Part shown: in pieces, positions 36,403 to 55,404 of the stretch
How positions within the stretch are numbered: position 1 is the stretch's first letter
How the letters are laid out: every line of letters begins with the position of its first letter
Origin: Flavobacterium notoginsengisoli
GTDB taxonomy: Bacteria > Bacteroidota > Bacteroidia > Flavobacteriales > Flavobacteriaceae
Direction of reading: 5' to 3'
NCBI RefSeq assembly: GCF_014207905.1
Contig: NZ_JACHLB010000002.1
Coordinates: 620,001 to 684,000 of the forward strand
Length of the DNA stretch: 64,000 nt
Made by a program: the position numbers and the translations under genes
The notes under the pieces: model-generated
Seen by the model: only the letters and a program-made list of their open reading frames with translations
What the model was told of the DNA's origin: nothing
Database searches by the model: none

Positions 36403-37440
36403 TTATGAATTTAATTCAGTTTTGTTTTCAGAATCATAACGCAAAAGTGCCTCTTGAAGTACCTTTTTCATACGATTTCTCAGACCTTCAGGCCTTAAAA
36501 TTTCAAGACAGCTTCCAAAACCTAACAGAAGACGTTCCATTTCATAATTGGGTATTACATATATATGTATAACAACACTTCCGTCTTCATTTTGTTTAAT
36601 TAATCGCTGAGAAGTGTGCAAAGGTTTTGTGAGTACATAAGGCGCATTTGAAGCATCAACCCAAACTTCGATACGTCTAGGCTGTAAACCTGAATTTACG
36701 GTAACACCAATTACATTTTTATAATAATCATCAGCATCAAAATCTTCTTCTATATAAGTTAGATTAAAATCGTAATCAATAGAAATAATTCTGTCCAAGG
36801 CTAAATTGGTAATAGGTTGTAAAGCTTTTCTTTTTCCAATCAAAAACCAGCGATTATTGAATTCCTTTAATATAAAAGGATGAAAATGGAATTTCGTTTC
36901 CTCAGCAGATTTAAAAGATTTATAAGTAATAATGAGCACCATTTTTTTGATAATCGCCTGATATATTTCATCCAGATAATGCAGTCCTTTTAGTTTCTCA
37001 TTTTTATCGAGATAAATAACAGGTTTTGTATGCGATTTCTCGGCGTAGATTTTATCCTCCAACCGCTGTAAAATATCTGATACATCATTAAATAAAGAGA
37101 AATCCTTAAACTGTTTCAGCATCGAAACCGTTTCTGTCAAAACATTCATATCGGTTTCCGTCAGCGGAATATCGGTTATCGAAAAATCTTCGTCTTCATA
37201 TTTATAATACTTTTTATCGTAAACTACGATTGGCGCATTGTAACCCAATTTTTCACTGCGCATCAGCTGAATATCCATTTGAATGGTTCGCTTGCTGATT
37301 GGGTTTTGACGGCCTTCATATTCAGATAAAGCTTCAGAACATTCTTCGATTAAATCTTCGAGTGTCCATTGTCTGTATTTATTCTGAAGACATTTATCGA
37401 TTGTTTTGTAGCGTATTAAGGCGTTTTTGTTTTGTGACAT
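36403..37440 (-). CDS. HTH-WYL domain transcriptional regulator
   Basis: A protein of 345 residues with an N-terminal helix-turn-helix (about 5-75, PISKRTIQMDIQLMRSEKLG) and a WYL domain (about 160-260) with FHPFILKEFNNRWFLIGKRK. A C-terminal WCX-like extension follows to residue 335. WYL domains bind nucleic acids or nucleotides and regulate defence and DNA- or RNA-damage genes. The start at 37440 (MSQNKN) fits the family better than the one at 37464. It lies at the edge of the RNA-repair island and is the only regulator there, so it is the best candidate to bind the four shared operators; this is inference. Confidence 0.85.
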   Translation of the reverse strand: MSQNKNALIRYKTIDKCLQNKYRQWTLEDLIEECSEALSEYEGRQNPISKRTIQMDIQLMRSEKLGYNAPIVVYDKKYYKYEDEDFSITDIPLTETDMNVLTETVSMLKQFKDFSLFNDVSDILQRLEDKIYAEKSHTKPVIYLDKNEKLKGLHYLDEIYQAIIKKMVLIITYKSFKSAEETKFHFHPFILKEFNNRWFLIGKRKALQPITNLALDRIISIDYDFNLTYIEEDFDADDYYKNVIGVTVNSGLQPRRIEVWVDASNAPYVLTKPLHTSQRLIKQNEDGSVVIHIYVIPNYEMERLLLGFGSCLEILRPEGLRNRMKKVLQEALLRYDSENKTELNS

Positions 37441-37457
37441 GGCTGTGTGTGGTTTTG

Positions 37458-37642
37458 CTCGCAAAGTCGCGAAGGCGCAAAGTTTTTTAATTCAATGATT
37501 ATTAAGATTTGTTTCACGCAGATTAAAAATGATTTAGGCAGATTCAGCAGATTATTTAAAAAATAAAAATATTTTTAGATCTGCTCAAATCTGTAAAATC
37601 TGCGTGAAATAAAAAAACTTTACGCCTCTGCGTCTTTGCGAG
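37458..37642. repeat. Long imperfect palindromic element (CTCGCAAAG ends)
   Basis: The left end CTCGCAAAG and the right end CTTTGCGAG are complementary. Inner arms (TTTCACGCAGATT / AATCTGCGTGAAA) also pair, so the whole 185 bp can fold into one hairpin. Related elements lie at 41232-41426 and 43029-43201. It looks like a non-coding dispersed (MITE-like) element between the WYL and HD genes. Confidence 0.7.
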
Positions 37643-38428: not shown

Positions 38429-38554
38429 TTCAAGAAATAAAAACAAACGTTCATAGAAATAGAAAAAAATAAAACAGGTCAAGTTTAAGTTACTTCGAAA
38501 ACACTTTCCAATGTACCACTTACACCATTACCTTTTTATTTTTCAATCATAATT

Positions 38555-38672
38555 GGGGCAGTAGCTCAGCGGTTAGAGCAGGTAGTTTTGAAATTATCAA
38601 TCAAAGGTCAATCAAAATTTACTTCTTACACTTTTAATGTCCGGGTCGTGGGTTCGAATCCCACCTGCTCCA
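38555..38672 (+). ncRNA. tRNA-like RNA with enlarged anticodon region
   Basis: The 5' arm GGGGCAG (38555-38561) pairs with CTGCTCC (38665-38671) with one G-U, giving a full 7-bp acceptor stem. The D arm is GCTC / loop AGCGGTTA / GAGC (38564-38579). The T arm is GTGGG / TTCGAAT / CCCAC (38648-38664), followed by an A in the discriminator position. Between D and T arms lie 68 bases instead of about 22, with no proper anticodon stem and one copy of the GGTCAA-N7-TTACTTC motif. It cannot be a standard tRNA. RNA-repair loci with SPFH proteins are known to carry a tRNA-like RNA (Burroughs and Aravind survey), which fits the setting. Confidence 0.8.
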
Positions 38673-38714
38673 CAATTAATGGTCAATTAAAACTTACTTC
38701 AGACAACGGCTACT

Positions 38715-38731
38715 TTCGGTTCGAATCCGAA
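38715..38731 (+). other. Isolated T-arm-like hairpin
   Basis: TTCGG / TTCGAAT / CCGAA is a perfect T arm with the invariant loop, lying between motif copies 3 and 4. No matching acceptor or D arm was found, so it is either a fragment or part of a larger tRNA-like fold. Confidence 0.6.
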
Positions 38732-38922
38732 CATAGTTTTAAAATCATCATTAATAAAAAAACGAGGGTCAAAATTAGCTTACTTCGGGGTAATCCCACC
38801 AAACTGTCACTTTGAATCAGCTAATTCATTACACTAAATTTCAGGTCAAGTGTTTCTTACTTCAAAACTCTTTTAGGTAGAAATCAGAAACGCAATTATC
38901 TAAATTTTAAAAATTAAAAAAA

Positions 38923-41163
38923 ATGAAAACAAAAGAATTATTAAAAATCAGTTTACGTCAAAATGCTATTTTCATTCCGTCAGAAATGATTACGAATGAC
39001 GCTAAAAATTTATCAGGAACAACATCAGTTTTGTTAGCCAATGTTTCTAAACTTGGATTTACATTTTCTGAATCATTGCTTCATGCTCTAAACAACGTAA
39101 ACCCAAAATATAAAATCGAGGTTTTAGAAGTTTTAAGAGAAGTTTTGGGAACTGATAAAAACTGGACACCATTGGTAAAAGAATGGAATGTTCCAACAAA
39201 CGAATCTGTTGTAGATCATATCATCACTTTTTTCGGAAATGTTTTCCAGACTAGAAATGGAACAACTTTACAATGCGGACATATTATCCCAGATAATACT
39301 TTCCCATTAGAAAGATACAATGGTTGTCCGTTCTGCGGAACTCCGTTTGAATTCGGTAAACTGGAAAATATCGGACAAGGAAGCAAATTGAAAATGTTGG
39401 AATTATGGTCAGAAAAAGATTTAAATGATTTCTATATATCGTTATTGCAATCAAAAACCGCTTTAGACGCTACTCAGGTAGATAGTTTAAAAATGGCGAT
39501 GCAATATTTACCTTTACCAAAAACCGAAGTAGCAATGAAGGAAACTTTAATGCTAGTGATCGATCTTTTGATTGAAAACGGTAAAGAAAATGAGGCTTCT
39601 CAGTTTTTGAAAACGCCAACCGATATCTTACGATACTTATGGTACAAAAATACAGGAATGCTTCAGATTATCGAGCCAAAAACGATTATCAAACGAACAT
39701 CAAAAAATGCACAGCATTTTCATAATGTTTTAGATACAAGTGTTCAGGCAAGAATTGCGTCTCAAAAAGATTTGAAACTAAAATATTCCCGAAAAGAATG
39801 TTTAATGGTGGCAAACTGGTTGAACGATATGGATATGGACGTTGAAGCCATGTGCGAAACGATGCATCCAAAAAGAGGAATGTGGGTTCGTTTTATCCGT
39901 GCGTTGCGTTTGGCAGAATACAGCAAAAGAAAAGGGTTTGAGAAATTGAACTTTTTAATGGATGTATTCTATAATCAAGTGTACGACGTTTGGCAAAGCA
40001 AAGTGAATTCGTCAAGATTGAAATTTGATGCCGATAAGACATTTGCGTTATTGAAACAGCGTCCAGGATTATTTGCTCGTTCGTTATTTTCGAATATGCT
40101 TTGGTTTGGAGCAGAAGAAACTATTGCTCATTTTGAAGAAATCATCGATAAAGTTCCAGCTCGTTTGGTGTTTACTTTGAACATGTATGCTCAAAATTAT
40201 TTTGATAAAAACATACAGAGAAGTGTGAAACCTTTGGGTGGAACAAACAAACGAATTGGTGCAAATCAATTGTTGGGATTATACGAAGATTTTCAGTTGG
40301 AAGAAATGAAAACTAAAATCGAAGAATTGTGCCTTTTGGCTATGAAAAAACGATTTGCTTCGGTTCCAAATACCAACAAAACGATTTATATCGATCCGCA
40401 ATTGTTTAATATTCCGGTTTCTATTGGAGATCGAAGCGAAACAGTTCAGGATTTGCCAGTTGCTTTAATGGGAACACGTTTCCCAGTTGAAGGTAACGAA
40501 GTACGATTGTTTATGCAGTGGGGTAAAGACCTTCCTGCACAACATTTGGATATGGATTTGAGCTGTCATATTGCCTACGAAGATCGTTCAGATATTTGCT
40601 CATACAGCCGATTGACGACTACAGGTTGTCAGCATAGCGGTGATATCCGAAGCATTCCGAATAAAATTGGAACAGCCGAATATATCAACATCAACATCGA
40701 CGAATTGGCGAAAGCCAAAGCAAAATTTGTAACTTTTACTTGCAATGCGTACAGCAACGGAAGTATTACGCCAAATCTAGTCGTAGGTTGGATGAACAGC
40801 AAACACCCGATGAAAATTTCGGAAAGAACAGGTGTAGCATACGATCCGTCGTGTGTAGATCATCAGGTTCGTGTGACGCAGAATGTTGCCAAAGGTTTGG
40901 TTTTTGGAGTGTTGGATGTAGCCAAAAGAGAAATCGTTTGGTTAGAGATGACTTTCGGAGGTCAGGTTGTAGGTGGTTTGGATTTCAAAGGAGTTCAGGC
41001 ACTATTGGCAAAATTGAACAGCAAATTGAATATTGGTAGTTTGTTACAGCTAAAAGCGGAAGCTCAAGGTTTAACAATCACCGAAAATGAAATCGCTGAT
41101 GAGGTGTATACAGCGCAATGGGCGATGAATCCAGCGGTTGTTACGCAGTTGTTAATAGATTAG
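38923..41163 (+). CDS. MXAN_6230/SCO0854-type RING domain protein
   Basis: A protein of 746 residues. Near the N-terminus a small treble-clef (RING-like) zinc site is visible: Cys118-x-His120 in QCGHIIP and Cys135-x2-Cys138 in NGCPFCG. The middle (about 150-470) is helical and repeat-like. The C-terminal part (about 490-700) is beta-rich, with GDRSETVQDLPVALMGTR and HLDMDLSCHIAYEDR resembling a TerD-like fold. The family name is assigned from memory. The protein is encoded behind a long leader with a tRNA-like RNA and before rtcB, so a scaffold or RNA-handling role in repair is likely. No enzymatic activity can be read. Confidence 0.75.
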   Translation: MKTKELLKISLRQNAIFIPSEMITNDAKNLSGTTSVLLANVSKLGFTFSESLLHALNNVNPKYKIEVLEVLREVLGTDKNWTPLVKEWNVPTNESVVDHIITFFGNVFQTRNGTTLQCGHIIPDNTFPLERYNGCPFCGTPFEFGKLENIGQGSKLKMLELWSEKDLNDFYISLLQSKTALDATQVDSLKMAMQYLPLPKTEVAMKETLMLVIDLLIENGKENEASQFLKTPTDILRYLWYKNTGMLQIIEPKTIIKRTSKNAQHFHNVLDTSVQARIASQKDLKLKYSRKECLMVANWLNDMDMDVEAMCETMHPKRGMWVRFIRALRLAEYSKRKGFEKLNFLMDVFYNQVYDVWQSKVNSSRLKFDADKTFALLKQRPGLFARSLFSNMLWFGAEETIAHFEEIIDKVPARLVFTLNMYAQNYFDKNIQRSVKPLGGTNKRIGANQLLGLYEDFQLEEMKTKIEELCLLAMKKRFASVPNTNKTIYIDPQLFNIPVSIGDRSETVQDLPVALMGTRFPVEGNEVRLFMQWGKDLPAQHLDMDLSCHIAYEDRSDICSYSRLTTTGCQHSGDIRSIPNKIGTAEYININIDELAKAKAKFVTFTCNAYSNGSITPNLVVGWMNSKHPMKISERTGVAYDPSCVDHQVRVTQNVAKGLVFGVLDVAKREIVWLEMTFGGQVVGGLDFKGVQALLAKLNSKLNIGSLLQLKAEAQGLTITENEIADEVYTAQWAMNPAVVTQLLID

Positions 41164-41469: not shown

Positions 41470-41507
41470 ACTACGCAAAATAACTGCGCAGTAGTAATTA
41501 ACCTTTG
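41470..41507 (+). promoter_or_regulatory. Shared operator-promoter module, copy 3 (rtcB)
   Basis: ACTACGCAA, AATAA, CTGCGCAGT (41470-41492), then TTTG at 41504-41507, one base closer than in copies 1, 2 and 4. The rtcB start is 20 bases downstream. The leader sequence seen after the other copies is absent, so this module drives the protein alone. Confidence 0.75.
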
Positions 41508-41527: not shown

Positions 41528-42949
41528 ATGAAAACACAAATAAACGGTACAGATATATTAGAATTAGGATTCCCTGAAGGAAAAATAATTGGGATTGCCT
41601 TAAAAATAAACAGCAAAAGAAACGGATTCACAAGAGACGAAATGATTACTCATTACAAAAACGTCTTAGAAACTCCGGAGAATTATATAGACGATAAAAT
41701 CTTCAGCAAACTGGCTGTGGCTTTAATTGAAAAATCGAATGAAAAACCAGAAGATTTCATTGCTTTAAATCAGAATCCGAATGCGTATTCGGCTTACGGA
41801 TTGGATCATATCGAAGACGGAGCCAGAAAACAAATGGAAGTGGCCATGAAACTTCCTGTTACGGTTGCCGGAGCTTTAATGCCAGACGCGCACCAAGGTT
41901 ACGGATTACCGATTGGCGGAGTTCTTGCCACAAAAAATGCCATTATTCCGTATGGTGTTGGAGTTGATATTGGGTGTAGAATGGCGTTATCGGTTTACGA
42001 TATTCCAGAGGATTTTTACTTTGAAAACGAAGCCAAATTCAAAAGAGAATTAATCGCGAATTCTATTTTTGGAGCAGGTCACGGATTTCACGGTCAGTAC
42101 AAATCAGATCATGCGGTTTTGGAGAACGAAGCTTTCAATATGAACCCGTTTGTGAAGAATCTGAAAGATAAAGCCTGGTCGCAATTAGGATCTTCGGGCG
42201 GTGGAAATCATTTTGTGGAATTCGGAATCATGGAATTTGCTAAAGACGATGTGGTTTTAAATATCCCAAAAGGAAAATACGTCGCTTTGTTAACGCATTC
42301 AGGTTCACGCGGAATGGGCGCAACCATTGCCGGACATTATACTAAAATTGCCAAAGAAGAATGTAAACTTCCAGAAGTGGCAAGAAATTTAGCGTATTTG
42401 GATATGAATTCGCAATTGGGTCAGGAATACTGGATGGCGATGAATTTGGCGGGAGATTACGCTTCGGCTTGTCACGAGATTATCCATAACAAAATGGAAC
42501 GCGCTTTGGGTGCGACAATTTTAGCGAAAGTAGAAAACCATCATAATTTCGCCTGGAAAGAAACCTGGAACGGCGAAGAAGTGATCGTACATAGAAAAGG
42601 TGCAACTCCAGCCGGAAAAGGCGTTATGGGAATCATTCCGGGAAGTATGACCGCACCAGGATTTTTGGTGAGAGGAAAAGGTCAAGAAAATGCAATAAAC
42701 TCTGCTTCGCATGGAGCAGGAAGACAAATGAGCAGAACCCAAGCCATAAAAAACATCACACAAACCGAAATGAAATCGATCCTGAGAGATCATGGCGTTA
42801 CGCTTATCGGAGCAGGTCTTGACGAAGCCCCAATGGCGTATAAAGATATCAATCAGGTCATGGAAGCGCAGAAAGATTTAGTAGATGTTGTAGCGAAGTT
42901 TACACCGAAATTAGTTAGAATGGCGGATGATGGAAGTCGTGAGGATTGA
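41528..42949 (+). CDS. rtcB: RtcB family RNA ligase
   Basis: A 473-residue GTP- and Mn-dependent ligase that joins RNA 2',3'-cyclic phosphate or 3'-phosphate ends to 5'-OH ends. All hallmarks are present: PDAHQGYGLPIGGV (119-132), the metal ligand Cys150 in DIGCRMAL, His228 in GGGNHFVEFG, His257 in LTHSGSRGMG, and His395 in SASHGAGRQ, the residue guanylated during catalysis. The length resembles the archaeal enzyme more than E. coli RtcB (about 408). It has its own copy of the shared operator. No archease gene is nearby. Confidence 0.95.
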   Translation: MKTQINGTDILELGFPEGKIIGIALKINSKRNGFTRDEMITHYKNVLETPENYIDDKIFSKLAVALIEKSNEKPEDFIALNQNPNAYSAYGLDHIEDGARKQMEVAMKLPVTVAGALMPDAHQGYGLPIGGVLATKNAIIPYGVGVDIGCRMALSVYDIPEDFYFENEAKFKRELIANSIFGAGHGFHGQYKSDHAVLENEAFNMNPFVKNLKDKAWSQLGSSGGGNHFVEFGIMEFAKDDVVLNIPKGKYVALLTHSGSRGMGATIAGHYTKIAKEECKLPEVARNLAYLDMNSQLGQEYWMAMNLAGDYASACHEIIHNKMERALGATILAKVENHHNFAWKETWNGEEVIVHRKGATPAGKGVMGIIPGSMTAPGFLVRGKGQENAINSASHGAGRQMSRTQAIKNITQTEMKSILRDHGVTLIGAGLDEAPMAYKDINQVMEAQKDLVDVVAKFTPKLVRMADDGSRED

Positions 42950-44222: not shown

Positions 44223-47200
44223 ATGAAAAAACCTTTAGAGATTCAAATTTTAGAGAAGAAACACAGAATTTTTCTTTCCAGTGAATTTTATGTTGTTAAC
44301 AACGAGAATAGTGTAGTTGAGCTAAAATTAGCTAAAAATGGAATAGATGATATTTCATTTTTAGACGTTTTTAATAGTTTGATTATTCTAGATCTAAGTA
44401 ATAACAGCATCTCGGATATTTCAATTTTAGAGAAATTTAAAAGTTTAGAAATTTTGGATCTAAGTTATAATCATGTTTCAGATCCGACAGTTTTAATAAG
44501 CTTAATATCATTAAAAGAACTTAATTTAAGTAACAATCAAATTTCTAGTCTTTCATTTTTGAAGAGTTTAAAAAATATTAATGAAGTCAACTTAAGTAAT
44601 AACCAGATTTTTAGTTTTTCTGATATTGATAATCTTCCAGTTTTAAATAATATTAATTTAAATGATAATAAAATTTCAGGAGTAATTTTTATAAGTAATT
44701 TACCAAAACTAAAAATATTAAAATTAGTTCGAAATGAAATTTCTGATTTTTTTATTCTTCATCCTTTAAGAAATTTAGTACATCTAGATTTGTATGGTAA
44801 TCAAATTTCAGATATTTCATTTATTTATGATTTCGCAGAACTTTCCTTTTTAGATTTATCAAGAAATAAAATCTCTAATATTTCACATTTAGCTAGTTTA
44901 AATAAGTTAAAAGAATTATATCTAAGTAACAATCAAATTTCTGAAATAGATATAATCGAAAATTTAAAAACTTTGGAGAGTTTAAATCTAAGCTTTAATG
45001 CAATTTCAGATATTTCAATTATTGCCAAATTGGAAAAACTACAAGATTTAAATGTAAGTGGAAATTACGAAATTACTGATATTAGTAATCTTAGGGAATT
45101 AGAAAATCTAATTCAGTTAGATGTTAGTTATAATCAACAGATTGGCGATTTTTCAATTATTAGTTTTTTAAAAAAAATAAAAGTACTTCTTCTAAATGGT
45201 GTAAAGATTTCTGATTTTTCATTCTTAAGTAATATGAAAGAAATTAGAACTTTGTTTTTAGGAAGTAATGATATTTCTAATATTTATTTTTTAGAGAAAT
45301 TAACCTCTTTGAAAACTTTATATCTAAGCTCTAATAATATTTCTGATATTCAGATTTTGAAGGATTTGAAAACAATTGAAAGTTTATATTTAAAAAATAA
45401 TAAAATTTCACATATTTCCATACTTAAGGAACTAAAATTTCTCAGAAATCTAGATTTAAGTGAAAATAAAATTTTTGAAGTAGAAGAATTTAACTTCATA
45501 GTTCAATTTTCTTCACTCCATATTAAGGCATATAACAATAATTGTTTTAATATAAATAAAATACATCTTGATGAGAAAGGTAATAATTACGATACTATTC
45601 TAAATGCCTTAAAAAAGTTGGATGAATCCAAAAAAACATATCGATTACCAGCTAAAGTGCTTTTTTTAGGTAATACTGAAAGTGGAAAGTCTACATTATT
45701 GGACTATATTTTACAAGAAAAAGAACCTAGAATTTTAAAAAAAAATCTTGGTAGCACACATGTTGTTCAAATAGAAACATTACCCGTTAAATTTAGAAAA
45801 AATGCAATACCTAAGGCAGTTTTTTATGATTTTGGCGGACAAGATTATTATCACGGACTTTATAAAGCTTTCTTAAGTAATGATTCAATTAATATCTTGT
45901 TATGGAATAAAAATTACGATAATAATCAAATTAGAAAAGATAGAAATAATCAATTAACAAGAGATTATGATCGTAATTATTGGTTAAACCAACTAAAATT
46001 TCAGTATGATAAAGGGAATAGAAAAAAAGATTTAGAATTTGATAGAAATAAAAGAGAACCAATTTTATTAGTTCAAACTCATGCAGATAAGGAAGCACAT
46101 GTAAGAGACACTTATAAAGGAGATTGTGAGATTTTTAACATTAAGAATGAATTTTTTATTTCTCTTAGTCAAGAATCTATTGAAGGTTCTGTAATACAAA
46201 AGATTGGTTTAAAGTATTTAGAGGAAACGTTACATGATTTAATTCAACAAAAACAAATAATAAAAAAAGAGCCTTTGTGGTATAAAGAATTTTTGAATTA
46301 TATACTAAGGACTAACACTGAAAATTATATATTATTATCTAAGGTAGTATCAGAATATAAAAGAGAGAGTGATCCTGATAATCTTTTGTTGCCAGAAGTT
46401 TTGCGAGAATTGAGTCAAACAGGACTTGTTTTATATTATAAGGATGATGAAGATTTAAAAGATGTGGTATGGTTAGATCCTTCTAAAACAGTGCAATATA
46501 TACATACTAATATATTATCTAAAGAAAACATTATCGCAAAGAGAGGAATTGTTGAACGAAACATTTTTGATGGTTTTGCTGATGAAAAAATAGTAAAATT
46601 ACTTATTAATCAAAAAGTCATTTTTTTAGATGAATACGATAATAATTATATTATTCCTGGTTATCTACCGCTAACAGAAGAAGAAGATAAATTATACGAG
46701 TTACTAACATTTGATTTTATTGAACCAACTTTTATATTGAAGTTTGAATATTTTATTCCATTTGGATTAATTAATCAACTAATATGTTTTTATGGTAAAA
46801 ATAAAAATAAAAAACATTATTGGAGAGACCAGTTATTGTTTACTAAAGATAATTGCAAAATTTTAATAAAATTAGATTTTACCAATTTAGAAATAGCGGT
46901 TTCTATAAAATCAAAAGATAGTATGAGTTTTGATAAATTGCAAAAAGAAATATTTAAAGACATACTTAATTTATATTGGGATAAAATACCTGTTGAAATT
47001 AAACAAAATAACATAGGAAAAGAAAATATAAATATTGAGGATATAAATATTGAAAATTTAATTTCAGGTACGCTACAAGCTAGTATTTCTCATAAAGATA
47101 TTAAAACTGAAAATATAGTTAAAGCTGAGTCAAAAGACGGTGTTCGATCTAATTATAATGAACTTGTTAGTCCTGATGATTTATATATTTCAGTAGATAA

Positions 47201-47858
47201 TAAGTATTTTACGAGCCATAAAGAATTACAAAATGAAGATAGGACCTTTAGTAAAATAATTTCTTTCGGCTTAGAAATAAAAAAAGAAATACAAAATGAT
47301 AAGGAAATTGAAATTAGACGACTTAATAAAAATTTAGTTATTGAAGAGAGCGCTATCTTATACAGAAATTTTACAAATAATAAAAATACTGAGAAAATGA
47401 AAAAAATATTTATTAGTTATTCAAAATTTGATGATGATTATAAAAAAGAATTTGTAAAGCATCTAATCACATTAAAAGATGATAATTTGATAGATCCATT
47501 TAATTGTGATGAAATAGATCTAGGTGAAGATTCACATGAGGTCATTCAACGTAAACTAGCAGAATGTGATTATATGGTTGCTTTGGTAAGTGTTGATTTA
47601 TTAAATACTAAGTATATTAGGGATTTTGAGGTTGATAAAGCAGAAGAATTAGGAAAAAAAATAATTCCAATTATTATAAAACCTTGTGATTGGGAAACAA
47701 GTAAATTAGGAAAGCATCATGCAAGCCTTAGAGGAACAAATATTTCTTTGGATAAACAATTGTATTTAGATGATAAGATTAAAGAAGTATCAAAAATTGA
47801 AAGAGCAGCATTTTGGACAGCTGTGATCAAAGAGTTCAGAGAAAAATTATTTAATTAA
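44223..47858 (+). CDS. LRR-Roc-COR-TIR protein (bacterial Roco)
   Basis: A 1211-residue multidomain protein. Residues about 25-440 are leucine-rich repeats of about 22 residues with the recurring core LDLSxNxISDIS. A Roc GTPase follows (about 475-650), with P-loop G483-NTESGKS and Lys489, then a Walker B-like YDFGGQDYYHG. A COR-like region spans about 680-890, a charged linker to 1055, and a C-terminal TIR domain from 1059 (KKIFISYSKFDDDYKK). The TIR keeps Glu1136 in KYIRDFEVDKA, aligned with the catalytic Glu of NAD-cleaving TIRs. The gene is richer in A+T and in Asn/Lys/Ile codons than rtcB and tatD, and it interrupts the island, so transfer is likely. A sensor-switch-NADase defence role is inferred. 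Confidence 0.9.
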   Translation: MKKPLEIQILEKKHRIFLSSEFYVVNNENSVVELKLAKNGIDDISFLDVFNSLIILDLSNNSISDISILEKFKSLEILDLSYNHVSDPTVLISLISLKELNLSNNQISSLSFLKSLKNINEVNLSNNQIFSFSDIDNLPVLNNINLNDNKISGVIFISNLPKLKILKLVRNEISDFFILHPLRNLVHLDLYGNQISDISFIYDFAELSFLDLSRNKISNISHLASLNKLKELYLSNNQISEIDIIENLKTLESLNLSFNAISDISIIAKLEKLQDLNVSGNYEITDISNLRELENLIQLDVSYNQQIGDFSIISFLKKIKVLLLNGVKISDFSFLSNMKEIRTLFLGSNDISNIYFLEKLTSLKTLYLSSNNISDIQILKDLKTIESLYLKNNKISHISILKELKFLRNLDLSENKIFEVEEFNFIVQFSSLHIKAYNNNCFNINKIHLDEKGNNYDTILNALKKLDESKKTYRLPAKVLFLGNTESGKSTLLDYILQEKEPRILKKNLGSTHVVQIETLPVKFRKNAIPKAVFYDFGGQDYYHGLYKAFLSNDSINILLWNKNYDNNQIRKDRNNQLTRDYDRNYWLNQLKFQYDKGNRKKDLEFDRNKREPILLVQTHADKEAHVRDTYKGDCEIFNIKNEFFISLSQESIEGSVIQKIGLKYLEETLHDLIQQKQIIKKEPLWYKEFLNYILRTNTENYILLSKVVSEYKRESDPDNLLLPEVLRELSQTGLVLYYKDDEDLKDVVWLDPSKTVQYIHTNILSKENIIAKRGIVERNIFDGFADEKIVKLLINQKVIFLDEYDNNYIIPGYLPLTEEEDKLYELLTFDFIEPTFILKFEYFIPFGLINQLICFYGKNKNKKHYWRDQLLFTKDNCKILIKLDFTNLEIAVSIKSKDSMSFDKLQKEIFKDILNLYWDKIPVEIKQNNIGKENINIEDINIENLISGTLQASISHKDIKTENIVKAESKDGVRSNYNELVSPDDLYISVDNKYFTSHKELQNEDRTFSKIISFGLEIKKEIQNDKEIEIRRLNKNLVIEESAILYRNFTNNKNTEKMKKIFISYSKFDDDYKKEFVKHLITLKDDNLIDPFNCDEIDLGEDSHEVIQRKLAECDYMVALVSVDLLNTKYIRDFEVDKAEELGKKIIPIIIKPCDWETSKLGKHHASLRGTNISLDKQLYLDDKIKEVSKIERAAFWTAVIKEFREKLFN

Positions 47859-48052: not shown

Positions 48053-48136
48053 CGAATACCTCGTCATGGTGAAGGAACAGGAAACTGTCCTAAATCATTC
48101 CTTTGAATGTTTTGCACACCTAAAGCGAGGTATTCG
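48053..48136 (+). ncRNA. Strongly folded leader RNA
   Basis: CGAATACCTCG (48053-48063) pairs perfectly with CGAGGTATTCG (48126-48136). Inside are further nested stems: GGTG/CACC (48068-48071 / 48117-48120), AAGGAA/TTCCTT (48072-48077 / 48098-48103) and CAG-GAAA-CTG with a GNRA loop (48078-48087). It lies between a good promoter and the ATG at 48156, with an AAAGGAG sequence upstream at about 48013. It does not match a riboswitch I know. Confidence 0.6.
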
Positions 48137-48564: not shown

Positions 48565-48663
48565 ATGATACTTTCAGCAAAACAAAATTTTGAAACTTTA
48601 GCCGGAGATTCTCCAGTTGAACGTTCAGGATGCTTTATGTATTTTTGTGAAATTGAAATCTAA
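48565..48663 (+). CDS. 32-residue peptide gene A
   Basis: A tiny frame from ATG 48565 to TAA 48661-48663, framed by a consensus promoter and a strong terminator, so it is a complete transcription unit. The peptide begins MILSAKQNF and its second half contains SPVERSGCFMYF. The peptide at 49132-49227 has a similar TPGRECFYM core at the same place, which supports real coding. It has no signal peptide or membrane helix. It could be a signal, toxin or modified-peptide precursor, or the unit could act mainly as a small RNA. Confidence 0.55.
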   Translation: MILSAKQNFETLAGDSPVERSGCFMYFCEIEI

Positions 48664-49131: not shown

Positions 49132-49227
49132 ATGAGTTTTAAATTATACATACACAACGCAGGATTAGTAGCCTCGACTCCAGGTCGTGAATGCTTTTAC
49201 ATGTCGGTGCATCAATATAAGCAATAG
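49132..49227 (+). CDS. 31-residue peptide gene B
   Basis: A tiny frame from ATG 49132 to TAG 49225-49227 with its own promoter and terminator. The peptide begins MSFKLYIHNAGLVA and contains STPGRECFYMSVHQ. Aligned with gene A, both show Leu-x-Ala, then Ser/Thr-Pro, Arg and a Cys-Phe-(Tyr)-Met core at about residues 15-24. The conserved cysteine is the only one in peptide B. Function unknown. Confidence 0.55.
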   Translation: MSFKLYIHNAGLVASTPGRECFYMSVHQYKQ

Positions 49228-49664: not shown

Positions 49665-50150
49665 ATGAAAAACAATACATTACAACAATATAAAAACGCA
49701 ATCAGAAAAAAATACGAAACCGAAAAAGAAGGGAAATACTTTGATTATTTGTACAAACCTTCTCGTGGAAAACTTCGTGATTTGTGCTGGTTGATTTTCG
49801 AAAATAACCCAACGAAAGAGGATTTGAACGTTTTCAGTAACCTTTTGGGCTTAGATTTCGATCATTCGAAAAAGAATAAGTTTAAGGAGAAGAAAGATAA
49901 GTTCAGACCTATCGAAACATTCTTCAAAGGCGAAACAGATCCGTCAAACATTGACGCTATTAACATGGCTGCAATTTTGGTTGATTTTGAATTGCGTCCT
50001 TTCAAAAAGTTTTACGAGAATTCTAAAACTGAGTGGACAAAACCAGTTAAACGATTGGAGAAATCTAAAGTCGTTTCTGAAAAAAAGAAATCTGAAAAAA
50101 AGTCTAAGAAAAGAAGTTTCTTTCTAGATTTTAAAAGCTTGTTTTTCTAG
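49665..50150 (+). CDS. Basic hypothetical protein
   Basis: A protein of 161 residues. The N-terminal 120 residues look folded and mostly helical (YKPSRGKLRDLCWLIFENNP, NVFSNLLGLDFDHS, DAINMAAILVDFELRPFKKF). The last 35 residues are a Lys/Ser tail (KKKSEKKSKKRS) suited to nucleic acid binding, ending in an aromatic FFLDFKSLFF. It lies just before the SPFH leader. No family is recognised. Confidence 0.65.
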   Translation: MKNNTLQQYKNAIRKKYETEKEGKYFDYLYKPSRGKLRDLCWLIFENNPTKEDLNVFSNLLGLDFDHSKKNKFKEKKDKFRPIETFFKGETDPSNIDAINMAAILVDFELRPFKKFYENSKTEWTKPVKRLEKSKVVSEKKKSEKKSKKRSFFLDFKSLFF

Positions 50151-50235: not shown

Positions 50236-50274
50236 TCTGCGCAGAATAATTGCGCAGTTCAATTTGAATATTTG
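50236..50274 (+). promoter_or_regulatory. Shared operator-promoter module, copy 4 (SPFH leader)
   Basis: TCTGCGCAG, AATAA, TTGCGCAGT (50236-50258), then TTTG at 50271-50274 at the same distance as copies 1 and 2, followed by TTCAAGAAATAAAAC as in those copies. It starts a leader of about 700 bases with tRNA-like parts before the SPFH gene. Confidence 0.77.
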
Positions 50275-50354
50275 TTCAAGAAATAAAACAAGTTCTTTTA
50301 TAAAATGAAATGCATTAAAGCTTCGGCTTTGATTAAAGATATCAAACAAGTCCA

Positions 50355-50501
50355 GTTGCGTGTTTCTGTATAGCACCATTGTAGGGAACTTTCCGCGAAA
50401 GCGTATTATGTTTTTCTATGCAGCTTGGTTTGAGGTTTCGGTTATTTTCCAAAAAATGATCACCAATCTATGTGTTGTGGGTTCGAATCCCATTCGCAGC
50501 A
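50355..50501 (+). ncRNA. Tentative tRNA-like RNA, enlarged middle
   Basis: The T arm is clear: GTGGG / TTCGAAT / CCCAT (50477-50493, one G-U), followed by CGCAGC and an A. GTTGCG at 50355-50360 can pair with CGCAGC over six positions. The D arm is not clear, and about 115 bases separate the arms, including a CGC-GAAA-GCG hairpin near 50395. The 3' half is well supported, the 5' end is a guess. Confidence 0.5.
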
Positions 50502-50564
50502 ATGCGGTAACTCAATCCGGTAGAGTAATAGAAGTCAACGCAGGTTCGAATCCTGCACCGATTA
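50501..50564 (+). ncRNA. tRNA-like RNA without anticodon arm
   Basis: AAT-(G)-CGGT (50501-50508) pairs with ACCGATT (50557-50563) as an acceptor stem with one bulged G. The D arm is ACTC / AATCCGGTA / GAGT (50510-50526). The T arm is GCAGG / TTCGAAT / CCTGC (50540-50556). Only 13 bases join the D and T arms, so the anticodon arm is missing. It starts at the base where the previous tRNA-like RNA ends. Confidence 0.65.
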
Positions 50565-50570
50565 ATTTCG

Positions 50571-50610
50571 GTTGGATGAGTGGCTAATCAACGACGGGCT
50601 CAAAACCTGT
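50571..50610 (+). other. tRNA-Leu(CAA)-like 5' fragment
   Basis: A D-like arm GAT / GAGTGGCTA / ATC (50575-50589) is followed by an anticodon-like arm ACGGG / CTCAAAA / CCTGT (50594-50610) whose loop would display CAA. No T arm or acceptor partner follows, so this is the reverse of the previous element: D and anticodon arms without a T arm. Confidence 0.5.
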
Positions 50611-50673
50611 TTTTAACAGAGACCATCACTCTTAAAAAGATGACCAGTAGGAAAAACTGATTTGTCTTTGTCT

Positions 50674-50982: not shown

Positions 50983-52080
50983 ATGATAAAAAGAATTAAA
51001 ATCGAAGCGTACCAAGTGGGATTGCTTTTCGAAAACAGAAAATTAGTAAAAGTATTAGAAGAAGGTCAGCACTGGATTTTTCGAGACAAAAATGTAACGA
51101 TTTATGATTTAAACGCAGTTTTTAATGCGCCTTTTGAATTGAATATTTTATTGCAAAATGAAGTTTTGGCTTCAATGTTGGACGTTGTTGAGGTTGCCGA
51201 TAATGAGATTGTTTTACATTTTATAAACGGAAATTTTAAAGGAACGCTGACTTCTGGAAGACATACTTTCTGGAAAGGAATTGTAAAAAACGAATTTAGA
51301 ACAGCAGATCTTTCTAAAATTGAAATCACAGAAAATATTTCAGTAAACTTATTGGAACATAATCAATTAAAGTACTTTGTTCGAAAATTTATCGTGGCAA
51401 GTAATGACAAAGCATTGCTTTTTGTGAATGGAACTTTTATACGAGAATTAAAATCTGGAACGCATTATTTCTGGAATAACGCTATTACAATTGAAGTTAA
51501 AACTGTCGATGCAAGACAGCAGCAGCTAGAAATTTCTGGACAGGAATTATTAACTAAAGACAAAGCTGGATTGAGAATCAATTTCTTTGTGAGATACCAA
51601 GTTGTTGATATTATGAAAGCTTTGGTCGAAAATAAAGACTTTGAAAAACAGTTGTATGTTGCCATGCAGTTGGCTTTAAGAGCTTTTGTTGGCGGACTAA
51701 CTTTAGATGAATTATTGAGTAGAAAAGATGCTATTGCGGAGGCTATTTTAGAAGAAGCAAAAGCTAAAATCAAAGATTTGGGTTTGAATATTTCTGATGC
51801 TGGGATAAGAGATATAATTCTTCCTGGAGATATGAAAGAAATCATGAATCAAGTTTTGGTTGCCGAGAAAAAAGCGCAAGCCAATAGTATTATGAGAAGA
51901 GAAGAAACTGCCGCAACAAGAAGTTTGCTAAATACAGCAAAATTGATGGAAGAAAACGAAATGTTGTGGAAATTGAAAGAGATGGAATACGTTGAAAAAA
52001 TTGCCGATAAAATTGGAGAAATTACAATTTCAGGAGGCGGAAACGTAATTGGTCAATTGAAGGAAATCTTCGTGAAATAA
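50983..52080 (+). CDS. SPFH/band-7 (slipin-like) protein of RNA repair
   Basis: A protein of 365 residues lacking the N-terminal membrane hairpin of normal slipins, so it is probably cytosolic. The first 175 residues hold three related modules with the pattern LLFxNxxFxxxLxxGxHxFW (near 15-35, 75-95 and 145-165). The SPFH domain follows (TIEVKTVDARQQQLEISGQE, then AGLRINFFVRYQVVD), then a helical C-terminal region of about 110 residues rich in Glu, Ala and Lys. SPFH proteins next to RNA ligases are proposed scaffolds for a tRNA-like RNA (Burroughs and Aravind). This fits: its leader contains tRNA-like elements under the same operator as rtcB. Confidence 0.85.
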   Translation: MIKRIKIEAYQVGLLFENRKLVKVLEEGQHWIFRDKNVTIYDLNAVFNAPFELNILLQNEVLASMLDVVEVADNEIVLHFINGNFKGTLTSGRHTFWKGIVKNEFRTADLSKIEITENISVNLLEHNQLKYFVRKFIVASNDKALLFVNGTFIRELKSGTHYFWNNAITIEVKTVDARQQQLEISGQELLTKDKAGLRINFFVRYQVVDIMKALVENKDFEKQLYVAMQLALRAFVGGLTLDELLSRKDAIAEAILEEAKAKIKDLGLNISDAGIRDIILPGDMKEIMNQVLVAEKKAQANSIMRREETAATRSLLNTAKLMEENEMLWKLKEMEYVEKIADKIGEITISGGGNVIGQLKEIFVK

Positions 52081-52907: not shown

Positions 52908-53540
52908 ATGATTATGAGTAAACCAAAAACACCTTTTTTAGAAACGATTTACCATCTTAGAACCATAGAGCAAATTATTTTGTATAATAAAGTAATAGCT
53001 ATTTCTGAAAAGGAAGAAACAGAAACGATTCAGTTTCTGGAAACTGAATATGAAAAAGAGATTTTAGAATATCCCGGAACAGCGCCAAAATTTAATCCAC
53101 AAGCGGCCTTATGGGGAGCTAAAACAATATATATATCGGCACAATTGCTATTAAATCGAGAACATAAAATAAGTGATCTTGAAGTGCTTTTATCAGATTA
53201 TAAAGGAAAGCAAAATGCCTCGGCAATTCTTTCTGCAGATTTGTGTCTTCGTTTTTTACCTCAAATTATAGCTGAAATGAAAAGAGTAGATCCTGAAGAT
53301 TTGGTTGTTCCAATTTTGGAGAAGCATATTTCAAGATTTCATTATTCAGCAATTGGATCTGATATCGAAATCGAAAATATAGATTATGAAAATATTGCCA
53401 AAAATGATTGTTTGCTGCAGCTTTACATTGATCGTATTGTACATAGGAAAGCAATAAAATTTGCTCAGTCAGATTTCATTAAAAAACAATTAGAAATAGG
53501 ATTTGGAGACTACCAAAAACTATTTTGGACACAACTTTAA
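52908..53540 (+). CDS. Helical protein heading MoxR-bpX operon
   Basis: A protein of 210 residues, mostly helical, with PGTAPKFNPQAALWGAKTIY near residue 55 and DRIVHRKAIKFAQSDFIKKQ near 175. It begins the five-gene unit that ends at 59685, 33 bases before the MoxR gene. It is likely one of the helical partners of MoxR-vWA-bpX ternary systems, but I cannot name its family. An ATG six bases later is an equally good start. Confidence 0.6.
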   Translation: MIMSKPKTPFLETIYHLRTIEQIILYNKVIAISEKEETETIQFLETEYEKEILEYPGTAPKFNPQAALWGAKTIYISAQLLLNREHKISDLEVLLSDYKGKQNASAILSADLCLRFLPQIIAEMKRVDPEDLVVPILEKHISRFHYSAIGSDIEIENIDYENIAKNDCLLQLYIDRIVHRKAIKFAQSDFIKKQLEIGFGDYQKLFWTQL

Positions 53541-53573
53541 AATAAACGAATTAATAAAAATAGAAGTAAAATA

Positions 53574-54704
53574 ATGAATGCTACAGCTAAATTAAATGCC
53601 GTTTTAAAACATATAAAAGAAACTTTTGTTGGAAAAAATGAAATTATAGACCTTTTAGGAATTGGATTATTGGCTAGAGAAAATGCTTTTTTGTTAGGAC
53701 CTCCAGGAACTGCAAAAAGTGCTATTGTCAGATCTTTATCGAAAGGTATTGAAGGCGATAAAAACTTCGAATATCTTTTAACTCGTTTTACAGAACCCAA
53801 TGAGATTTTTGGCCCTTTTGATATTCGAAAACTAAAAGAAGGTGAATTAGTAACAAATACAGATGGGATGATGCCAGAAGCTTCAATGGTTTTTCTAGAT
53901 GAGATTTTTAACGCCAATTCTGCTATTTTGAATAGTTTACTAATGGCGCTCAATGAGAAAATATTTCGTCGTGGTAAAGAAACTAAAAAATTACCCGCTC
54001 TTATGTTTGTTGGAGCAAGTAACGTTTTGCCTGAAGATGAAGCATTAAACGCTTTGCTAGATCGTTTCTTAATTCGTATTAATTGTGATTATGTAGAACC
54101 AGACTTATTGCACGAAGTTTTATTGGCTGGATGGAGATTAGAAGGCTCTGAAGTAAGAGAAAATCCAACAATTTCGGCTGATGAAGTCCGTGAATTACAG
54201 ATACTTTGCCGTAAAGTAGATTTAACAGCAATTCGAAAAGAATATGTTGATATTATCCACAGTCTTCGAAATACAGGAATTAAAGTGTCTGACAGACGTG
54301 CTGTAAAGCTTCAAAACCTTATAGCTGCAAGTGCCTTAATGTGTGGTCGAAATGAAGCAATTGTTTCTGATTTTTGGGTGCTGAAATATATTTGGGATAA
54401 CGAAGAACAAATCGAAATTTTAGAAGGAATTATTAATAAGATTATCGAAAAAGATAATTCTGCCTCAGCACATCCGCAGGCATTATACAATAAAACGCCA
54501 GATGCCGAAAGCGTAATGAAAGAAGTTAATTATCTAACAGAGAAATGGCAAGATGAAAACCTTTCTTTTGAAGAGCAAAACGTAATTAAAGATAAGCTGA
54601 GATATATTCAGACACGTTGTGATTGGATTAAAGATGTAGAGCAAAAAAAGTATATCCAGAATCATATAGAATCTTTGTGGCAGAAAATTCTACAAACTAT
54701 TTAA
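53574..54704 (+). CDS. MoxR/RavA-type AAA+ ATPase
   Basis: A AAA+ ATPase of 376 residues. Walker A is GPPGTAKS at 42-49 (Lys48), Walker B SMVFLDEIF with Asp109-Glu110. GASNVLPEDEALNALLDRFL supplies sensor 1 and the arginine finger region. The form is closest to RavA. These enzymes use ATP to remodel a vWA partner, here the protein at 55410-57950. The next gene starts one base after its stop, so translation is coupled. Confidence 0.92.
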   Translation: MNATAKLNAVLKHIKETFVGKNEIIDLLGIGLLARENAFLLGPPGTAKSAIVRSLSKGIEGDKNFEYLLTRFTEPNEIFGPFDIRKLKEGELVTNTDGMMPEASMVFLDEIFNANSAILNSLLMALNEKIFRRGKETKKLPALMFVGASNVLPEDEALNALLDRFLIRINCDYVEPDLLHEVLLAGWRLEGSEVRENPTISADEVRELQILCRKVDLTAIRKEYVDIIHSLRNTGIKVSDRRAVKLQNLIAASALMCGRNEAIVSDFWVLKYIWDNEEQIEILEGIINKIIEKDNSASAHPQALYNKTPDAESVMKEVNYLTEKWQDENLSFEEQNVIKDKLRYIQTRCDWIKDVEQKKYIQNHIESLWQKILQTI

Positions 54705-54705
54705 A

Positions 54706-55404
54706 ATGTATTTTTTAGAAATAAATAAAGAGCATAAGGAATTTTTAGGAGCAATAAGACATTGGGAGAATTTAAAAGTTGCTTTTGAGTCGGATGTGAT
54801 TTGGGTTAAAGATTTTTCTTTTGCACAGATTAGTTCACCGGAAATGCTACAAATTCCGTACACAAAATTATATGAGCTAAAAGAAAATTTACTTTTTGAA
54901 AAAGATAAACTTCTGCCTCTAAAAAAGCTTCCTTCGGGATTATTATGGACACCAATTTTAAGGGCTTTACCTATTTTGCTGCCAAAGTTTAATCATAACT
55001 TTTTTGGCATTAATCAAAAAGTTAAGATGACTTTGAAACCTTCAGAAAATACCAGAGAAGCATATGCCTTATTGGTGGATTGTGAAGAATTGAAAACATA
55101 TATCGAATCTGCTCCAAAATATAGATTGGAACCTTTACGCTGGATTGTTTTTGATAAAAAAGCATTGATTATCGGAACTCCTTTATTGCCATTAAAAGGC
55201 GATACATATTGGTTTGAAAATAATTTTCTAATGCCCTCTGGATATGATTTCGAATGGAATGCTTTAACTAAAATAATGCAGAAAAAATTAAACCCGACAG
55301 AAGAAAATATTGTGCTTTGGAACACAGACAATACTTATTTTAATATACCAATTATAAACTTTAAACCGCTTTCTATAAGCTCATTTCGCTTAACTTTTTC
55401 ATAA
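54706..55404 (+). CDS. Small bpX-like component of ternary system
   Basis: A protein of 232 residues with no recognisable catalytic motif. It is beta-rich in the second half (YRLEPLRWIVFDKKALIIGT, PLLPLKGDTYWFENNFLMPS). It sits between the MoxR ATPase and the vWA protein, the position taken by the small bpX-family proteins in MoxR-vWA-beta-propeller systems (Aravind group). The exact bpX class is not assigned. Confidence 0.6.
   Translation: MYFLEINKEHKEFLGAIRHWENLKVAFESDVIWVKDFSFAQISSPEMLQIPYTKLYELKENLLFEKDKLLPLKKLPSGLLWTPILRALPILLPKFNHNFFGINQKVKMTLKPSENTREAYALLVDCEELKTYIESAPKYRLEPLRWIVFDKKALIIGTPLLPLKGDTYWFENNFLMPSGYDFEWNALTKIMQKKLNPTEENIVLWNTDNTYFNIPIINFKPLSISSFRLTFS

Follow-up and report, generated by a model that had tools for sequence, protein, structure and literature searches.

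The 5.5-Mb genome of Flavobacterium notoginsengisoli encodes an SPFH/Band 7 protein of 365 amino acids (50983-52080, plus strand; Pfam Band_7, E 7e-28), and the locus raises the question of what kind of element fills the leader between this gene and a 161-aa gene (49665-50150). All coordinates refer to the window, that is the whole stretch of 64,000 nucleotides that was analysed. A sequence-only reading of this DNA had claimed that several tRNA-like modules stand in a row in the SPFH leader under an operator shared with rtcB, and that they form three segments, each with a different, "dismembered" subset of tRNA arms. Bacterial Y RNAs are known as partners of Ro60, and in the circularly permuted tRNA genes of archaea and algae the 3' half precedes the 5' half. 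In 2016, Burroughs and Aravind reportedly named a new tRNA-like RNA that belongs with SPFH in RNA-repair systems.

A structured RNA in the SPFH leader

A structured noncoding RNA, at least about 300 nt long, makes up the leader of the SPFH gene and runs in the same direction as this gene. It spans roughly positions 50340-50645, and probably more, which exceeds the segment 50355-50640 first delimited, and is apparently transcribed from the operator shared with rtcB. In its 5' domain (50347-50427), CAAG (50347-50350) pairs with CTTG (50424-50427) and a further helix is formed by 50380-50388 and 50412-50420. Pseudoknot 1 (50429-50461) has a stem 1 of 50429-50433/50448-50453 and a stem 2 of 50440-50444/50457-50461, and pseudoknot 2 (50618-50642) is made up of AGAG/CTCT (50618-50621/50629-50632) and CATC/GATG (50624-50627/50639-50642), all on the plus strand, so that pseudoknot stems flank the two tRNA-like units on both sides. 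Pseudoknot 2 ends about 340 nt before the SPFH start codon, and a search for a terminator-like site or intrinsic terminator between the RNA and SPFH found none. ARAGORN called no tRNA gene in the window and Rfam 15 gave no family at or above its cut-off on the window's leader. A permissive Rfam scan of the leader returned YrlA with 38.6 bits at 50446-50554 (cut-off 69) and tRNA with 26.9 bits at 50501-50564 (cut-off 29); together, these matches below cut-off point to a putative tRNA mimic with the permuted arm order of YrlA.

Predicted architecture of the leader core

Judged by comparison of sequences, the core of the leader almost certainly consists of two tandem, circularly permuted tRNA mimics. 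All of the arms named in the sequence-only reading are present, namely T arms at 50477-50493 and 50540-50556, D arms at 50510-50526 and 50575-50589, and an anticodon-type arm at 50594-50610 with the loop CUCAAAA (anticodon CAA), and the tRNA-like modules do stand in a row and are conserved. Their grouping into three segments with acceptor pairings of their own is refuted: the two strands that lie between T arm 1 and D arm 1 pair with each other to form a closed hairpin, such a hairpin also follows T arm 2, and the data describe two permuted units with swapped acceptor partners. Within unit 1 (50467-50532, plus strand), a 5-bp stem P1 (50467-50471/50528-50532) at the position of the anticodon stem is predicted, from covariation, to enclose the T arm, a closed acceptor hairpin (50494-50498/50503-50507) and the D arm (50510-50513/50523-50526) in this order. 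Unit 2 (50540-50610, plus strand) would possess all four arms in the order T arm, closed acceptor hairpin (50557-50561/50568-50572), D arm (50575-50577/50587-50589) and anticodon arm (50594-50598/50606-50610), the last with a 7-nt loop containing U33. Unit 1 would thus have its opening at the place of the anticodon loop, and unit 2 would keep an intact anticodon loop with U33 and be open at the variable region. Closure of the acceptor as a hairpin should prevent both units from being charged with an amino acid. A conventional tRNA acceptor formed by the strand before D arm 1 and the strand after T arm 2 was rejected, with 38.0% of its cells paired and 493 of 500 shuffles reaching or exceeding this value; with such pairing and no ARAGORN call in the window, an acceptor made from two ends and ready for CCA, as in a tRNA gene, was not found in the leader.

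As in permuted tRNA genes, the 3' half comes before the 5' half in the leader units; in contrast to such genes, the acceptor is closed by a mostly short loop and unit 1 is devoid of an anticodon. In the 52 aligned loci of alignment A4 (see below), the acceptor loop of unit 1 measures 4-9 nt in 42 and 13-26 nt in the other 10, and a processable spacer between 3' and 5' ends, as permuted tRNA genes have, was not found in unit 1. The units might be permuted tRNA precursors which RtcB joins at the open anticodon to yield circular or mature tRNAs, as would be compatible with their topology and with the presence of RtcB in 41 of the 48 genomes that have the RNA and SPFH. However, acceptor loops of 4-9 nt are too short for processing sites and disfavour such precursors, as do the missing anticodon of unit 1 and the seven genomes that show no RtcB, and this origin of mature tRNAs appears very improbable.

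Core nucleotides of tRNAs are retained in unit 1, with U8A9 in 51 of the 52 loci and GG in the D loop in all 52. The anticodon-type hairpin has a complete stem in 49 of the 52 rows and a 7-nt loop in 45 of these; U33 is found in each of the 45 loops and a purine at position 37 in 44. Their anticodons are CAA (11), UUU (9), UAA (5), GAA (3), CAU (3), UAG (2) and twelve that occur once each. Such loops would suit mimics that act as bait for anticodon nucleases or other tRNases, or inhibit them competitively, and shield tRNAs during RtcB repair, with unit 2 presenting its anticodon loop. The constant U33 beside varied anticodons, the presence of RtcB and of a 3'-5' exonuclease-type protein in the repair locus, and the competitive-inhibitor role proposed for YrlA in passages of PMC7790460 are consistent with such bait. 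However, several species (e.g., L018, L027, L028) have lost the anticodon arm yet keep the T-acceptor-D part, and passages of the same source (PMC7790460) state that fragments of Salmonella YrlA were undetected when tRNAs were cut. We regard a role as bait as doubtful.

Covariation supports the permuted fold

Three alignments were used. A1 comprised 29 of the 30 best genus loci, L035 being omitted on account of an extra anticodon arm. The core alignment A2 held 20 of these 29 and was made with MAFFT without structure as input; L026, L033 and L034 were omitted deliberately, and the boundaries of L011, L017, L020, L024, L025 and L027 were not located. A4 comprised 52 loci, 50 of the 80 named loci described below plus L106 and L110, and was fitted to the structure model; the 30 loci omitted include eight of the ten lowest scorers (L136, L137, L143, L147, L148, L155, L159 and L183), so that counts from A4 are flattering.

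The sequence-only reading had proposed an alignment as the check on conservation of the arms, and they turned out to be conserved beyond chance. Across 37 pairs in the 20 sequences of A2, 97.9% of the pair cells were paired, a value reached in none of 500 shuffles, compared with 86.6% after shuffling and 31-43% after sliding. Both sides had changed in 19 of the 37 pairs, and the covariation score amounted to 0.370 versus 0.139 for shuffled alignments (0 of 500). Acceptor hairpins 1 and 2 were paired in 99.0 and 98.0% of cells, respectively, and the weakest helix was D arm 2 with 80.7%. In A4, whose alignment leans to the structure, 98.3% of cells were paired, 34 of the 37 pairs had double changes and the covariation score was 0.768 versus 0.232 (0 of 500 shuffles).

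When all pairs of columns were scanned in the 29 sequences without aid of a structure, acceptor hairpins 1 and 2 ranked first and second, followed by stem 2 of pseudoknot 1, the long helix of the 5' domain and D arm 1, with T arm 1 in seventh place. RNAalifold recovered the T, acceptor, D1 and anticodon helices, missed P1 and D arm 2 and proposed an extra 3-bp stem. P1 reads TCTAT/ATAGA here and ACTAT/ATAGT in four sequences; four more contain CTAA or CTGA and a partner strand changed to fit, and one of the 29 (L036) has a terminal mismatch. Stem 1 of pseudoknot 1 is almost invariant. Stem 2 was scored in 37 of the 52 loci, the other 15 being without the core motif, and reached a mean of 6.0, compared with 3.86 ± 0.26 when partners were swapped. 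A permissive search found pseudoknot 2 at every one of 30 loci, where changes are compensated, for instance as CATTCT/AGAATG, and its 23 distinct cases scored 4.59 versus 4.01 ± 0.10 with partners swapped (maximum of 300 swaps, 4.32). Energy folding of the single sequence gave no unusual thermodynamic stability (z -1.23; 11 of 100 shuffles as stable). For the permuted structure predicted from the alignments, the covariation is decisive.

Related SPFH genes of many Bacteroidota have an RNA of this kind upstream

DNA comparison with 199 genus genomes gave matches to the leader in 66 at E ≤0.01, many of them short pieces, and the genus alignment displays strong conservation with variable hairpins. 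SPFH lies downstream of the leader in 30 of the 30 best genus loci (tblastn; best segment 69-100% identical), where several of the fetched stretches end inside the SPFH gene and the best segment of L026 begins at residue 112. A covariance model of the leader RNA, R1, was run on the 199 genus genomes and matched 180 of them at E 0.001, with scores that split: a strong group of 36 places in 35 genomes, our own included, scored at least 104 bits, and the next places scored 84, 73, 72 and 61 bits, two of these four being SPFH leaders (G022 and G103) and two real tandem tRNA-Phe arrays. Among the places inspected in the tail of low scores were more tRNA arrays as well as leaders of RtcB and divergent leaders of SPFH. 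In the F. notoginsengisoli genome R1 has four matches, one of which is the SPFH leader. Since real tandem tRNA arrays score up to 73 bits with R1, weak matches rest on their position. This cross-matching of real arrays lends support to a probable origin of the units from a tandem array of identical tRNA genes, from which spacers would have been lost while acceptor partners were swapped.

The 80 named loci are the best 80 of 510, picked by similarity of the SPFH protein. In all 80, by hand count, R1 matches at most 1 kb 5' of SPFH on the same strand, ten of the matches being below 60 bits and the weakest at 37.9; this tight linkage was measured on loci found via SPFH, so RNA copies elsewhere could be missed. 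According to the record names, the loci come from Flavobacterium, Chryseobacterium, Winogradskyella, Aquimarina, Tenacibaculum, Maribacter, Zobellia, Proteiniphilum, Chryseolinea and Chitinophagaceae, and one, perhaps misbinned, is labelled Limnohabitans. An RNA of this kind is thus widespread before related SPFH genes of Bacteroidota. The kilobase 5' of SPFH contains two or more perfect T arms in 78 of the 80 loci, the 5'-domain motif in 70 (55 by the strict pattern) and an inverted repeat resembling the operator, with no more than one mismatch, in 53. Viral contigs searched with the 5'-domain pattern gave 0 exact matches.

ARAGORN calls some tRNA in 15 of these 80 upstream kilobases and a tRNA in the leaders L114, L115, L117, L118 and L119, and the Rfam tRNA model passes its 29-bit cut-off in parts of the leaders L149, L166, L179 and L195 (31-39 bits). 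In some species the leaders adjoin tRNA genes or arrays, which, like the weak matches of R1 to real arrays, would be expected if the leader were a decayed tRNA array without function. In contrast, compensated changes occur in 19 of 37 pairs of the unfitted and 34 of 37 pairs of the fitted alignment, and conservation extends far beyond the genus. A pseudogene array is ruled out by the compensated changes in both alignments, and decay without function is hardly credible.

No RtcB was found in seven of the 48 genomes that contain RNA and SPFH, which may partly be due to incomplete assemblies, at least two of the seven being metagenome assemblies. At six of the corresponding loci (L171, L175, L182, L186, L188 and L189) the gene after SPFH is on the opposite strand, and at the seventh (L191) other genes are on the strand of SPFH. 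Since RNA and SPFH occur without RtcB in these genomes, the pair looks like the core, the smallest constant unit seen.

Operator copies connect the SPFH leader RNA with RING and rtcB

The operator claimed in the sequence-only reading proved real in a motif search of the genome. An inverted repeat, CTGCGCAGAATAATTGCGCA, lies at 50237-50256 (plus strand), and the pattern CTRCGCAAAATAAYTGCGYA occurs at 0-1 mismatch at four sites genome-wide, all of them in this locus (38303, 38391, 41471 and 50237); at three mismatches, three more sites are found elsewhere in the genome, with one site for the reversed-pattern control. Two copies lie before the rtcB-side RNA, one between RING and rtcB and one before the SPFH leader RNA, and the operator copies thus tie the SPFH leader RNA to RING and rtcB. 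A second shared promoter box, TTTGTTCAAGAAATAAAA, is located at 50271-50288 (plus strand). In an exact genome search, TTTGTTCARGAAATAAAA has three matches (38337, 38425 and 50271), all before the two RNAs, and two one-mismatch matches exist elsewhere in the genome. The operator is probably bound by the WYL-domain regulator encoded at 36403-37464 on the minus strand (Pfam WYL and WCX).

On the rtcB side, the RtcB RNA ligase gene (41528-42949, plus strand; Pfam E 1.4e-83) has the operator copy at 41471 in front. The rtcB-side leader RNA (38450-38925, plus strand) contains a tRNA-like part at 38555-38675 with an insert between the D and anticodon (UUU, Lys-type) arms, as well as five exact copies of GGTCAAN7TTACTTC in 390 nt. 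It has a full or near-full match in 24 of the 199 genus genomes, our own included, and as seven of these 24 strongly match the SPFH RNA, the two RNAs can occur apart.

With the RNA placed 5' of SPFH on the same strand at every locus examined, under the shared operator and with pseudoknots on both sides, the leader could also be a cis-acting switch, in which a tRNA-related protein or fragment would control expression of SPFH by binding to the mimics. The distance of about 340 nt between pseudoknot 2 and the start codon, the lack of a terminator-like site in the searched interval and the related modules upstream of RtcB argue against such a switch, which we judge improbable.

Several other features of the neighbourhood were recorded. 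The RING-type protein (38923-41163) scores 127.6 bits with the SCO0854 family model (cut-off 600). It was considered as a possible stand-in for Ro60; its structural model is poor (pLDDT 55.8), the best Foldseek hit is TerD (E 0.03, probability 0.97), Ro60 appears only at rank 29 with a probability of 0.16, and no useful PDB sequence match was obtained. Between rtcB and SPFH, 44223-47858 encodes a 1211-aa protein with leucine-rich repeats, a GTPase-like middle and, by eye, a TIR-type-looking end. A c4-2 RNA is found at 48057-48134 (Rfam, 53.6 bits, above cut-off). Two reading frames of about 32 aa (48565-48663 and 49132-49227) have similar ends (..ERSGCFMYFCEIEI and ..GRECFYMSVHQYKQ), each with what by eye is a terminator-like hairpin behind it, and perhaps encode small peptides of one family. 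The repair locus also encodes the 3'-5' exonuclease-type protein mentioned above and, after SPFH and the exonuclease gene, bpX4, bpMoxR and bpX2 of MoxR-vWA-beta-propeller ternary systems (52908-55404).

Relation to YrlA, Ro60 and other RNAs

Like the tRNA-like noncoding RNA reportedly described by Burroughs and Aravind, the leader RNA is linked to SPFH in an RtcB locus. That published RNA limits the novelty of our finding, and the addition made here is the permuted tandem architecture with its covariation; among the literature matches listed, titles and openings of abstracts do not describe this architecture, which is no proof of absence.

In the Rfam structure line of YrlA (RF02553), T arm, acceptor hairpin and D arm follow each other in a closing stem in the same order as in unit 1, and YrlA likewise sits in RNA-repair loci. 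Weak Rfam matches to YrlA also exist in nine of nine other SPFH leaders scanned (best 33-44 bits; cut-off 69). In contrast to YrlA, which the window's leader matches below the gathering cut-off (38.6 vs 69 bits), the leader has two tandem units, of which unit 2 includes an anticodon arm; pseudoknot stems flank the pair, and an SPFH gene adjoins it. In the basal stem, which binds Ro60 in YrlA, several pairs of the Rfam model are non-standard in the leader, where P1 has 5 bp. According to passages of PMC8394870, the stem of YrlA binds the Ro60-like protein Rsr, its tRNA-like part binds PNPase and YrlA is a substrate of tRNA modification enzymes; it is this tRNA-like part that the SPFH leader RNA has.

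No match to TROVE (Ro60) was found in the F. notoginsengisoli genome, nor in 30 of 36 other genomes that bear the RNA. The six with a TROVE gene are G183, G079, G121, G192 and G195, which contain L101-L105, and G068, and in the L101-L105 genomes the TROVE gene is close to an R1 match on the rtcB side. R1 there matches the leader upstream of RtcB, with its repeats of the TTACTTC element, at L101, L102, L104 and L105; at L103, RtcB was not found in the stretch. The gene order TROVE, RNA, RtcB in G079, G183, G192 and G195 resembles the rsr-yrlBA-rtcBA operon of Salmonella given in passages of PMC7790460. An SPFH gene is also carried by the rtc locus of Pseudomonas aeruginosa, as stated in parts of PMC13086221.

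GOLLD-like matches (RF02032) were obtained in six of 49 genomes, with 116-136 bits, all below the cut-off of 150 bits, and Rfam gave no RF02032 match in the F. notoginsengisoli genome. In all six the match lies directly 5' of an SPFH-type RNA (L171, L188, L189, L194, L179 and L206); for L179, the contig start overlaps the end of contig L204, which bears the GOLLD-like match, and L206, where a YrlA-like match is followed by an SPFH gene, is a second copy in Maribacter algarum. At L203, which is the place of L188, and at L207, which is that of L194, GOLLD comes after a tRNA array. According to passages of PMC12286853, GOLLD assembles into 14-mer RNA cages whose function is unknown, and its linker sometimes contains tRNAs; parts of PMC12286853 and PMC6582537 report tRNAs or pseudo-tRNAs within GOLLD. 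The SPFH leader RNA is a separate element.

Proposed function of the RNA and its SPFH protein

Given this architecture and conservation, the tight linkage to SPFH and the shared operator, the best explanation, to which we assign a probability of roughly 0.6, is a Y-RNA-like tRNA mimic that has the SPFH protein as its partner. By analogy, we infer that the leader RNA works like a bacterial Y RNA: its tRNA-shaped faces would bind tRNA-binding factors such as modification enzymes, PNPase or RtcB, and SPFH, as the linkage suggests, would take the scaffold role that Ro60 has in YrlA complexes. Such an RNA-protein assembly would be induced together with RtcB, perhaps on tRNA damage. More speculatively, and with little confidence, RNA and an SPFH ring could make up a ribonucleoprotein that is tethered to the membrane and independent of Ro60. 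Its inside-out tRNAs, one of which would mimic an anticodon-nicked tRNA, would gather enzymes of tRNA processing or repair, and in some lineages the cage-forming GOLLD RNA would join it.

The permuted tRNA mimicry of Y RNAs is seen here doubled, beside a membrane-scaffold gene and mostly without a Ro60-type gene. The finding suggests which RNA an rtc-type SPFH protein may bind and gives this RNA a covariation-based structure, and it links Y RNAs with RtcB repair loci and, in six genomes, with GOLLD RNA. If GOLLD does join the particle of RNA and SPFH, this would supply a cellular context for GOLLD.
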